Notes under the pieces: generated by a model
What the model saw: only the letters and a program-made list of their open reading frames with translations
Databases searched by the model: none
What the model was told of the DNA's origin: nothing
In this document: positions 6,972-40,020 of the stretch, piece after piece
Numbering within the stretch: position 1 is the stretch's first letter
How the letters are laid out: each line of letters starts with the position of its first letter
DNA from: a virus
Strand: one strand, 5' to 3'
Length of the DNA stretch: 40,020 bases
Virus record (IMG/VR): IMGVR_UViG_3300048033_000384
Coordinates: 1 to 40,020 of that record
Made by a program: the position numbers and the translations under genes

Positions 6972-7052
6972 CACCTTATTAGGTGGCATTTTAGGGGTAG
7001 ACAAAACCCCAAACAATTGCTATAATTTAAAAGCTGCCGCAGGCGGTAATAC

Positions 7053-7193
7053 CTATAGCCAGATCCTACTGTAGATCTCACCACGGCTAATACCGATATC
7101 GGCTAACTCCTTATCAGTCATTCTCGTTAACAGAAGGTAGTCCGCCTTCTTCTGCTGATGTTCTTGGATGTAAGTTAGTAGTTTCTTTAGCAT
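7053..7193 (-). CDS. DUF1127 (YjiS-like) small protein
   Basis: This 46-residue protein reads MLKKLLTYIQEHQQKKADYL, then LLLTRMTDKELADIGISRGE and a short tail. The LTRMTDKELADIGISRGEI core is the hallmark of DUF1127, a family of tiny basic proteins in alphaproteobacteria, some of which bind RNA and act in stress responses. A strong Shine-Dalgarno (GGAGG, 6 nt before the ATG at 7193) marks a genuine start. It overlaps the 3' end of the endonuclease VII gene by 80 nt in another frame. In a phage it may modulate host RNA metabolism; that is inference. Confidence 0.75.
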   Translation of the reverse strand: MLKKLLTYIQEHQQKKADYLLLTRMTDKELADIGISRGEIYSRIWL

Positions 7194-11655: not shown

Positions 11656-11731
11656 AAAAAAACCCCCCGACCACGGAGGGAGTCGAGGGGCTGCGCTAGT
11701 GAGTTTGCACAGGCAGGGAGGTAACTGTGCT
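11656..11731 (-). ncRNA. Candidate small RNA with two C-rich hairpin loops (cuckoo/CcsR-like)
   Basis: A promoter (11738-11766) precedes about 76 nt that end in an intrinsic terminator, all on the minus strand and without an ORF. Hairpin 1 pairs GCACAG (11730-11725) with CUGUGC (11712-11707) and exposes UUACCUCCCUGC. Hairpin 2 pairs CCCCUCGAC (11690-11682) with GUCGGGGGG (11671-11663), loop UCCCUCCGUG, followed by seven U residues (11662-11656). Alphaproteobacterial cuckoo RNAs such as CcsR of Rhodobacter have two hairpins with CCUCC-rich, anti-Shine-Dalgarno loops. The fit is structural; expression is unproven. Confidence 0.62.
11663..11690 (-). terminator. Intrinsic terminator (3' hairpin of the small RNA)
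   Basis: Nine-base-pair stem (one G-U pair) with a 10-nt loop, followed by seven U residues. It reads on the minus strand only; no T-run follows on the plus strand. It also insulates the cassette from leftward transcription coming from the integrase side. Confidence 0.8.
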
Positions 11732-11737
11732 AAGGTG

Positions 11738-11766
11738 ATACTAGCAAAACTTTTTATTGGGTGCAA
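11738..11766 (-). promoter_or_regulatory. Promoter of the candidate small RNA
   Basis: TTGCAC (11766-11761) and TAGTAT (11743-11738) on the minus strand are 17 nt apart. The predicted transcript start near 11731 is the first base of the hairpin region. It is divergent from the integrase gene. Confidence 0.55.
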
Positions 11767-11781
11767 GTGTTATTTTATTGC

Positions 11782-11830
11782 TTGACTGTAACTATGCCAC
11801 TTTGTTAGGCTCATACCTATCACACAAAAC
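11782..11830 (+). promoter_or_regulatory. Integrase upstream region with leader box
   Basis: TTGACT (11782-11787) is a good -35 element but the -10 is poor (TAGGCT at 18 nt). GCCACTTTGTTAGG (11796-11809) shares 12 bp, GCCACTTTGTTA, with the region upstream of the SSB-like gene (19465-19476). CACACAAAAC (11821-11830) equals the cassette leader box, followed here by GGAGA as ribosome site before ATG 11841. Confidence 0.45.
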
Positions 11831-11840
11831 GGAGACAGAT

Positions 11841-12917
11841 ATGGCTAACAAGGTAAAGTACCTACAGACCAAGCGCCTGCGCTCTGGACAGGTTAAATGG
11901 GCGTTTAACCCGCCTTTATACCTGCAAGAAGCTATTGGCGCTGTTTATGAGCAATACAATGACAAGTCTGATGCAGTTATGCGATGCCTAGAGGCAGACA
12001 AGTTATTTCAGGCTTATCGTGCGAGTAAAAAACCAGAGCAGTTAGACCCTTCATCGGTTTCTGCCCTGATCAATACCTACAAAAGCACCAAGTCATGGAT
12101 GGACCTAAAGCCTAACAGCCACCGCACCTATGAACAGCTACTTAACGGCGTCCTGTGGCGTCGCATCGGCAAGCACAAGCATTCTTTCGGCAACATGCAG
12201 GCCAATAATGTGAGTAACATGGATGTAGAGCATTTGTATCAGCAGTTATCGTCTGACGTGTCAGTACATCGGGCCAGACACACTGTTAAGGTGCTAAAGC
12301 GGATATGGAATGTTGGGGAAAACCTCGGCAAAGTCCGTGGCAATCCCTTCCGCAGCATCGAACTAGGCTCAGAAGAGGTGTCTGACGTGATATGGAGAGC
12401 AGGTCAGGTCAAGCGCTTCATAGAGACTGCAGACGAGATGGGCTACTGGTCTATCGGAACCTTAGCAATGCTGTGCTACGACCTATGTCAGCGTCCTGGG
12501 GACATGCGACAGCTTACTTGGGGGACATTTGATGGTGAAGCCTTTGAGTTTCGTCAAGAGAAGACAGGCACCAAGATGTACATCACAGGCAGTGATCGTC
12601 TTATCGCCCGTATAGTTAAGCGGCGTAATGAAGGTGGCCCCGACGACTGTATTGTACGCTATGAGGCTACAGGTAAGCCCTACGACAATCGTATGTATAA
12701 TAAGATAGCAGCTAAGGTGCGTGAAGAAGCTATGCTGCCTTCAAAACTAACCCTGAAATGCCTGCGCCATACTGGTGCCACCGAATTAGGTGAAGCAGAT
12801 GCAACTGAAGATCAGATTGCGGCTGTCACAGGCCATAAGAGCCGCCAGATGCTTAACATCTACGTCAAGAAGACCAAGCGCATGGCAGAACAAGCACAAA
12901 TGAAGAGGTTTGGATGA
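11841..12917 (+). CDS. int: Tyrosine-family site-specific integrase
   Basis: This 358-residue recombinase would integrate and excise the phage. The catalytic domain (about 185-350) shows Arg218 (CQRPGD), a Lys in EKTGTK (241/245), the box II string KCLRHTGATEL with Arg309, His332 in TGHKS, and the nucleophile Tyr341 (LNIYVKK). The first residue of the usual HxxR is Lys306 instead of His. The N-terminal part (about 72-170) is a helical core-binding domain. Start ATG 11841 has GGAGA 6 nt upstream. It lies about 1.4 kb from a tRNA-derived att core at 14312-14356. Confidence 0.92.
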   Translation: MANKVKYLQTKRLRSGQVKWAFNPPLYLQEAIGAVYEQYNDKSDAVMRCLEADKLFQAYRASKKPEQLDPSSVSALINTYKSTKSWMDLKPNSHRTYEQLLNGVLWRRIGKHKHSFGNMQANNVSNMDVEHLYQQLSSDVSVHRARHTVKVLKRIWNVGENLGKVRGNPFRSIELGSEEVSDVIWRAGQVKRFIETADEMGYWSIGTLAMLCYDLCQRPGDMRQLTWGTFDGEAFEFRQEKTGTKMYITGSDRLIARIVKRRNEGGPDDCIVRYEATGKPYDNRMYNKIAAKVREEAMLPSKLTLKCLRHTGATELGEADATEDQIAAVTGHKSRQMLNIYVKKTKRMAEQAQMKRFG

Positions 12918-14760: not shown

Positions 14761-15523
14761 TTTTAAAGACCAGTTACATATTGTGTCCCAAATTGAGACT
14801 CGTGAAGGCACAAAGACAACGATAGACTGCCCGTTCTGTGGCGGTAAGAAGAAATTTACAATAGACAAATACGACGGAAAGCTTTTGTGGAACTGCTTCA
14901 GGGCATCCTGCAACGTCCGTGGTTCCTATCAAGGGAGAAGAAGCGTTGAAGCCACCAAAGCGTACCTTTCTGGTCATGCAAATGAAAAACAAAAGACTAA
15001 GCATGTTCCAATACCTCAGATTACAACCAAACCAGAAAACCATGAACCTACGTGTGATTACCTCAGAGTGGTTAACAGTTGGGAAGCGTACCTAGCTGGC
15101 GATATAAAGGTCCGATATGCGCCTAAAGAAAATAGGGTACTCTTCTATAACAAAGAGGGTACAGGCGCTGTAGGTAGGTTCCTGGGGTCTAGTAAGTATA
15201 AGTGGTGGAACTATGGTGATTTGTCTGGTGGTATACATGTAGGAGATGGGGATCATGCAATCCTAGTAGAGGATGCCCCTTCTGCCTGTGCAGTATCGCA
15301 GCTTACGGGATATGTTGGTGTAGCTATTTTAGGTACAACATTGACAAAGCCATTACTTGCATCACTTAGTAAGTACACTGAAACAACATTAGTTCTTGAC
15401 AAGGATGCTAGTAGTAAGGCAGTGTTGTTAACCAGAAGACATTCTCAAATTGATAAACTGAGACTTACGGAGAAAGATCTTAAATGGATGAATGGCGATC
15501 AATTAGCAGCTGTACTACGGTAA
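14729..15523 (+). CDS. DNA primase (zinc finger plus TOPRIM)
   Basis: This protein of about 264 residues makes RNA primers for lagging-strand synthesis. The zinc-binding domain is at residues 34-61 (CPFCGGKKKF ... WNCFRASC: C34, C37, C56, C61), as in T7 gp4-type primases. The TOPRIM core follows near ILVEDAPSACAVS, with an acidic LVLDKDAS motif later. It has no helicase part; that is a separate gene at 16114. The start is uncertain: GTG 14729 and GTG 14738 are possible, with AGG before the first. It overlaps the upstream zinc-ribbon gene. Confidence 0.85.
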   Translation: MKSVENLTLYSFKDQLHIVSQIETREGTKTTIDCPFCGGKKKFTIDKYDGKLLWNCFRASCNVRGSYQGRRSVEATKAYLSGHANEKQKTKHVPIPQITTKPENHEPTCDYLRVVNSWEAYLAGDIKVRYAPKENRVLFYNKEGTGAVGRFLGSSKYKWWNYGDLSGGIHVGDGDHAILVEDAPSACAVSQLTGYVGVAILGTTLTKPLLASLSKYTETTLVLDKDASSKAVLLTRRHSQIDKLRLTEKDLKWMNGDQLAAVLR

Positions 15524-15702: not shown

Positions 15703-15795
15703 CTGCCGATTATTCGCAGTTGATCCGCTGCGTTAACAAATATCCGTCGAAGCTAACCTAGTACCGACGTAAAACTAAAGGAAAAGGTATATACA

Positions 15796-39011: not shown

Positions 39012-40020
39012 TTAAAGCTCCGCATCTAACTTTATTCGTGCAGTTGTGTCATTGCTTATGTAAATCCAACCGACACCACCAGACGTATATCCTGTACCTG
39101 TGAAACCTAATTCAACTGCATCATAACCGCTTGAGCCGCTACCAATACTTAACGTCGAAATATTTATGCCAGTACCACCCTGCTGGAACCTAATGCTACC
39201 ATTTGAGGTTAAGTCTGGTATGTCACGCATAGAGGTAGGTAAGTGTAAGATTGCACCACCCGCTGTTGTGGATGTGGCAAAACCAATGGCCACTCGACGA
39301 TAAGCACTCTCACCACCGATAGATTGATAATACCGCTGGCACAACGCCAGTTCTTCCCCATAGGATCGGTGTTCAAAAGGCGTGGCGACTTTGCCTAGTT
39401 CTAGTTGGGCTTCGGTAAATTCAATGTAGTCACCAGTATTTACGTCAGTGCCACCATCTGTAGTTGAGGTTATTTTAACCCTTATATCAAGGCTAGTTGC
39501 TGTTGACGGAACAACAAAAGTGCCACTAACAAGCTGCTCCTGACCTGCGCCTGTGTATTTAACATACCCAAAGGTTGTTCCGTCTGCCCTAAGTATTATT
39601 TTTGCCTCAGGCGAATTTGAGGTTATTTTAGCCGATACTGTAATCTCTTTACCTGCAAGTACAGAAACATCTTCTATCCTTTGAATAAAACCAATGTATC
39701 CAGATGACGATGAAGATGTAGCTACTGCTTTTAACTTTCCCGAAGATAAGCTCGCATCTCCTGAAATTGCAGTAATGTTTGTAAGCCAACGATCCGTATG
39801 CTCATACTCACCATTACCTATTCCAGTAACAGGAAGAACACCACGTTGATTAATAATGTGACTACCATTAATGATCCAGTTCCTACGCCCTGCACCAATT
39901 AGGTTAAACTGTTCCTGTGGTGTCTCAGCACGAAGCATAGCCTCGCCAGCTATACCTGTGGGTTTGTCTAGTTCTGCCAGCTTTTCTCTTACGTTAATGG
40001 CTGGCTTAGATACGTTGACT
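39012..40020 (-). CDS. Tail fibre protein, N-terminus outside window
   Basis: The open frame continues past the window end, so the ATG at 39938 is internal and about 335 residues are visible. EKLAELDKPTGIAGEAMLRA, then ETPQEQFNLIGAGRRNWIIN, form a fibre-shaft or link region. A β-rich, Ser/Thr/Gly-rich C-terminal part follows with carbohydrate-binding-like features and LELGKVATPFEHRSYGEELA, which is familiar from phage tail-fibre receptor domains. It likely binds the host surface. The missing start lies upstream on the minus strand beyond 40020. Confidence 0.8.
   Translation of the reverse strand, partial: VNVSKPAINVREKLAELDKPTGIAGEAMLRAETPQEQFNLIGAGRRNWIINGSHIINQRGVLPVTGIGNGEYEHTDRWLTNITAISGDASLSSGKLKAVATSSSSSGYIGFIQRIEDVSVLAGKEITVSAKITSNSPEAKIILRADGTTFGYVKYTGAGQEQLVSGTFVVPSTATSLDIRVKITSTTDGGTDVNTGDYIEFTEAQLELGKVATPFEHRSYGEELALCQRYYQSIGGESAYRRVAIGFATSTTAGGAILHLPTSMRDIPDLTSNGSIRFQQGGTGINISTLSIGSGSSGYDAVELGFTGTGYTSGGVGWIYISNDTTARIKLDAEL

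Follow-up and report, generated by a model that had tools for sequence, protein, structure and literature searches.

Alphaproteobacterial cuckoo RNAs, such as CcsR of Rhodobacter, are composed of two hairpins with CCUCC-rich loops and act in stress responses, and the criteria of this family include an RpoHI/RpoHII-dependent promoter. The cuckoo/CcsR RNAs, like alpha-r14/NfeR1, expose an anti-Shine-Dalgarno (anti-SD) motif in unpaired regions of hairpins whose stems vary freely, and NfeR1 represses ntrB by covering the ribosome binding site (RBS) (PMC10746234). RBS coverage is likewise predicted for the double-hairpin RNAs of Burkholderia (RF02278) and for NmsR of Neisseria, which are very short and carry CU-rich unpaired stretches (PMC5688073). 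CU-loop RNAs of this functional kind are known from bacteria; the variant described here is an anti-SD-loop small RNA (sRNA) gene in phages, located beside the integrase gene.

A small RNA unit divergent from the integrase gene

The window, by which we mean the whole 40-kb virus record of 40,020 nucleotides analyzed here, encodes among others an integrase, thymidylate synthase, a DnaB-like helicase and PolA-type genes. Its tail-fiber gene (39012-40020) appears to be truncated where the record stops, and since the start of this gene and the adjoining tail-structure genes of relatives are missing, the record is probably a fragment. The window integrase most resembles those of the Roseobacter phages CRP-235, CRP-212 and CRP-3 (41-48% identity), and the RBS ACGGAG lies directly 5' of its ATG. 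The sRNA unit is the divergent neighbor of this gene (Table 1).

Table 1. Features of the sRNA unit and of associated genes in the window
Feature	Position	Strand	Details	Basis
Predicted sRNA promoter	11738..11766	-	TTGCAC (11766-11761), 17 nt, TAGTAT (11743-11738)	Sequence; comparison with relatives
Predicted sRNA transcript	11656..11731	-	About 76 nt	Fold; unit conserved in 59 distinct related loci
Hairpin 1	11707..11730	-	24 nt; GCACAG 11730-11725, loop UUACCUCCCUGC 11724-11713 with CCUCCC at 11721-11716, CUGUGC 11712-11707	Fold; covarying stem; kept loop motif
Single-stranded linker	11693..11706	-		Fold
Predicted intrinsic terminator	11656..11692	-	GC-rich hairpin 11692-11661; seven T at 11662-11656	Sequence; T-run in relatives
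Probable integrase promoter	11782..11810	+	TTGACT, 17 nt, TTAGGC; weak -10 box	Sequence
Tyrosine integrase	11841..12917	+	ATG at 11841	PHROG_1 integrase, E 7e-32
DUF1127 protein (CcaF1 family)	7053..7193	-	46 aa	PF06568 over cut-off, E 1.4e-8; ORF

The initial annotation had described a minus-strand promoter and two hairpins, the second being a terminator with seven U residues, and the letters read as claimed. The predicted transcript, the start of which we place 7 nt past the -10 box, also folds as described there (-28.3 kcal/mol, z about -2.5 to -2.8) and has no ORF of at least 60 aa in its interior. The promoter boxes are sigma70-like by sequence and stand back to back with the probable integrase promoter, at the place of which a plus-strand TTGAC is also seen in relatives. 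The terminator hairpin bears the CU-rich loop CCCUCCGU, and opening of its weak closing pairs yields the UCCCUCCGUG reported initially.

The window genome by itself is not conclusive, since a strict consensus promoter scan of this genome alone did not list the sRNA promoter and the spacing of the two motifs is common by chance; an exact two-motif pattern search of IMG/VR gave 31 hits, all unrelated or due to chance on inspection. Rather, it is the comparison with relatives that raises the unit above chance, through its kept position, stems that are longer than those in shuffles and a single descriptor match per matching genome.

Conservation of the unit in related phages

IMG/VR scans with the integrase and an integrase profile, together with the cultured phages CRP-235, CRP-3 and CRP-212, provided 77 phage loci (59 distinct) with enough DNA upstream of the integrase gene. 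In nearly all of these, a minus-strand promoter, a hairpin and a terminator are found at a similar distance from the integrase start, with most relatives having a -35 box that starts with TTG, a spacing of 16-18 nt and a position about 71-96 nt upstream of the integrase gene. The T-run at the 3' end is present on the minus strand in 57 of the 59 distinct loci. As judged by promoter and U-tract, the transcribed strand is the minus strand; single-sequence fold energies favored neither strand over the other.

The stem of hairpin 1 is rewritten completely between lineages, with 20 distinct stems among 24 hairpins, yet pairing is kept, as seen for GCACAG/CUGUGC in the window, GCACGG/CCGUGC in L033 and GUAGAC/GUCUAC in CRP-235, as well as for GUAGGC/GCCUAU, GUAGUC/GACUAC, GUGAAC/GUUCAC and GAAGCA/UGCUUC in further lineages. 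Despite these changes, the loop retains CUCCC, usually as CCUCCC(UG) or CCUCCCUG. The stem around the motif averages 7.2 bp, compared with 3.7 bp in motif-keeping shuffles, which is a fairer figure than the 143 of 144 paired cells, because the hairpins were picked by pairing and this count arises partly by construction. Recurrence of the unit in related phages with compensatory stem changes, which the initial annotation had proposed as a check, is thus borne out.

CUCCC occurs in 51 of the 59 distinct loci and is mostly unpaired in 49. Its seat varies, being between two hairpins in CRP-3 and in the terminator loop or linker in the L037/L061 clade, which indicates that an exposed motif is kept more strictly than its exact location. 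Two copies of CUCC(C) are found in 24 of the 59 distinct loci, the second residing in the linker or terminator loop. With respect to the two anti-SD-like loops proposed initially, the first is conserved, but the second is not: CUCC is absent from the terminator loop of the window's nearest relatives (L033/L034), where it reads UCCCCAAG, and therefore represents a local feature. Loci L091-L098, L110 and L111-L114 have no CUCCC, yet retain the hairpin and terminator. L111, L113 and L114 carry at this place, upstream of the integrase gene, a variant of ~150 nt that has additional hairpins and whose C-rich loops lack CUCCC.

A strict descriptor, which required a stem of at least 6, CUCCC in the loop and a terminator shortly after and which members with a different motif seat such as CRP-3 escape, gave a single match per genome in seven complete or long genomes, in every case the integrase-side unit. 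No match was obtained in the sRNA-less relatives CRP-1, CRP-207, CRP-738 and HMO-2011, and control motifs gave one site in all genomes together.

It is highly improbable that the hairpins constitute an attachment site, an operator array or a mere terminator instead of an RNA gene. The hairpins do adjoin the integrase gene, and operator-like repeats are present near promoters in some relatives; however, attP of CRP-3 lies between published primers at 2829 and 3662, more than 2 kb away from the sRNA motif at ~316, which led us to reject the attP reading, and a terminator alone does not explain a conserved promoter and a covarying 5' hairpin with a constant loop.

The coding sense of the window contains GGAGG 4 times where 40 are expected from codon shuffling, and the coding DNA of genome G007 contains none where 45 are expected. 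Since these genomes are otherwise strongly depleted of CCTCC/GGAGG, the persistence of the motif in the loop is a sign of selection. Strong depletion of both GGAGG and CCTCC in coding DNA was observed in most HMO-2011-type phages examined, with or without the sRNA. The sRNA was rejected as the cause of this avoidance, since CRP-1, HMO-2011 and CRP-738 lack it and are equally depleted, and since in most genomes the depletion extends to both strands.

The conserved position, the rewritten but paired stems, the constant loop and the single descriptor site together identify the unit, at the level of sequence comparison, as a real and conserved sRNA gene of phages that had not been annotated before and that bears an anti-SD loop. 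At the gene level it displays what defines the anti-SD loop class, namely a conserved CU-rich unpaired loop within a short RNA gene with its own predicted promoter and terminator. The carriers are HMO-2011-type marine phages, which are abundant ocean viruses with alphaproteobacterial hosts, so that the initial proposal of a phage-borne sRNA with an anti-SD hairpin loop gains support from relatives infecting this host class. A limited search of open papers and Rfam found no description of such a gene for these phages. Neither the integrase profile nor a 261-aa gene, used as queries against 85,000 genomes, revealed a prophage, and a scan for close relatives with the adjoining 261-aa gene gave no matches.

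Comparison with known RNAs and the phage DUF1127 protein

An Rfam scan of the window gave no match at curated thresholds, and a match to the human lncRNA ST7-OT3_3 (E 0.093) was taken as chance. The most similar family, and the best sensible resemblance in several separate lineages, is anti-hemB of Burkholderia (RF02837), with full-length sub-threshold matches of 19-31 bits (19.7 for the window, 28.9 for L033 and 31.1 for L116, all below the gathering threshold of 49.5). The overall layout is shared, comprising a 5' hairpin with the CCUCCCUG loop, a linker and a terminator, whereas the stems, the host class (beta) and the genomic context are distinct. No significant match was obtained with the model of the double-hairpin RNAs (RF02278), which, as for NmsR, are bacterial and not phage RNAs.

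The initial annotation had assigned the RNA to a cuckoo-like type. The chromosomal alpha-r14 RNAs present CCUCCUCCC in three hairpins, whereas the phage sRNA presents CCUCCC in a single copy beside the integrase gene. The model of alpha-r14 (RF02344; gathering threshold 58.8), which is related to cuckoo RNAs, reached 14.5-22.8 bits in relatives and gave no match in the window. The window loops UUACCUCCCUGC and CCCUCCGU are without CCUCCUCCC, and the relatives keep CUCCC/CCUCCC. Cuckoo/CcsR RNAs occur in multiple tandem copies, and CcsR shares an operon with a DUF1127 gene. In contrast, the descriptor scan gave a single copy of the phage sRNA in the genome, and the DUF1127 gene of the window is 4.5 kb away from the sRNA, with no CCTCC/CTCCC beside that gene. 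Membership in the family is therefore contradicted by the motif, the copy number and the lack of an adjacent or co-transcribed DUF1127 gene, and the RNA should no longer be called cuckoo-like.

A reading in which the sRNA belongs to the host cuckoo/CcsR sRNAs, or mimics them, and works with the phage DUF1127 protein appears improbable to us. The CCUCCC loops and the alphaproteobacterial hosts would fit such a role, DUF1127 is encoded in most of these phages (17 of 23 HMO-2011-type or related records, the window among them, whether or not the sRNA is present), and the RNA-binding DUF1127 protein CcaF1 takes part in CcsR sRNA maturation in Rhodobacter (PMC10253847). The frequency of DUF1127 among these phages keeps the idea alive that the sRNA mimics or titrates host RNAs. 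However, besides the differences in motif, gene arrangement and window match to alpha-r14, DUF1127 is present in sRNA-less relatives and missing from some sRNA-bearing genomes (G006 and G009). Strict co-occurrence was rejected on these grounds, and with DUF1127 not beside the sRNA and tracking it only loosely, a partnership between the two is hypothetical.

Potential targets of the exposed loop

We consider it probable that the phage encodes an independently transcribed sRNA of ~75 nt, the exposed CUCCC loop of which blocks RBSs in trans, chiefly those of host mRNAs. Transcription would initiate at a dedicated sigma70-type promoter, which stands back to back with that of the integrase gene, and end at a dedicated intrinsic terminator, and the 5' hairpin would present the conserved CUCCC, usually CCUCCC(UG), for pairing with GGGAG/GGAGG of RBSs, thereby stopping translation initiation. 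We infer this pairing from known CU-loop sRNAs (alpha-r14/NfeR1, NmsR and the Burkholderia double-hairpin RNAs), which behave in this manner. The likeliest targets would be a few host mRNAs; in several lineages, the phage integrase mRNA would recur as a further target. Target predictions within the phages found no target common to all lineages, and an RNAduplex ranking without accessibility was dropped as too noisy.

The integrase mRNA could also be the principal target, such that the divergent transcript pairs with the integrase RBS, holds integrase translation low and thereby chiefly autoregulates lysogeny, which we regard as rather unlikely. GGGAG or GGAGG is present in the integrase RBS of 8 of 15 genomes, compared with 53 of 735 other genes (7%; odds ratio 14.7), and no gene other than integrase was found to have a GGAGG RBS in G006 and G009. 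Native pairs of sRNA and integrase RBS outperform swapped or permuted ones (p about 0.008-0.014, values that kinship of the loci makes optimistic), and pairing extends over 7-10 bp in some lineages, involving ACCUCCC in L106, GUCCUCC in L056 and AGCCCUACUU in L037. By contrast, L033, L040, L067 and L100 show only weak pairing or none, and in the window pairing is modest, with CUCCGU stemming from the non-conserved second loop. Furthermore, the RBS enrichment is not seen in the window's own clade and is slight in cultured phages, and in most genomes integrase is not the top target (mean normalized rank 0.31, last in G003). Given the relatedness of the phages and the little signal in the window clade and cultured phages, the integrase mRNA remains a candidate target, and blocking of chiefly host RBSs remains our preferred reading.

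Silencing of late genes, notably through the tail-fiber mRNA, seems very unlikely. The tail-fiber RBS of CRP-235, CRP-3 and CRP-212 reads CAGGGAG, a 7-nt match complementary to CUCCCUG, and tail fiber ranks as top, second or third target in several genomes. However, CAGGGAG is constant where the loop changes (G007 and G009) and differs where the loop is constant (G001, G004 and G006), and it falls within the last part of the preceding coding sequence, so that some other constraint may act on it. This target was rejected for the absent covariation and likely coding constraint, and the match is probably a coincidence.

A broader role can be envisaged, although we regard it as doubtful, in which the sRNA back to back with integrase belongs to the lysogeny switch of HMO-2011-type marine phages, with loop and integrase RBS co-evolving, and may also rewire host translation together with the CcaF1-like DUF1127 protein of the phage. 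With a conserved integrase-linked riboregulator, most integrase-bearing lineages sampled would possess a gene not annotated before, and it would offer an RNA handle on the choice between lysis and lysogeny or on the reprogramming of host translation.

Repeated elements near the unit

Just past the sRNA terminator, the window contains a conserved 14-bp element, ACTCGCACGTCAAA, at 11645-11632 on the minus strand. In relatives this element often occurs as a pair ~200-260 bp apart that flanks a small ORF and is followed by an AT-rich stretch; sites are located at 15469/15685 in G003, 46216/46464 in G004, 43776/44022 in G006, 1818/2075 in G009 and 205/52696 in CRP-235. It is possibly a regulator site or promoter-like. 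A second, operator-like sequence, TTAGGTGGC(A/G)TT, is found at intergenic promoters, at 6979 (+) and 8052 (-) in the window and at 15791 (-) and 15837 (-) in G003. In phages of the L078/L104 type it lies within the spacer of the sRNA promoter and also in the integrase promoter, and its presence in both divergent promoters hints at one shared regulator.
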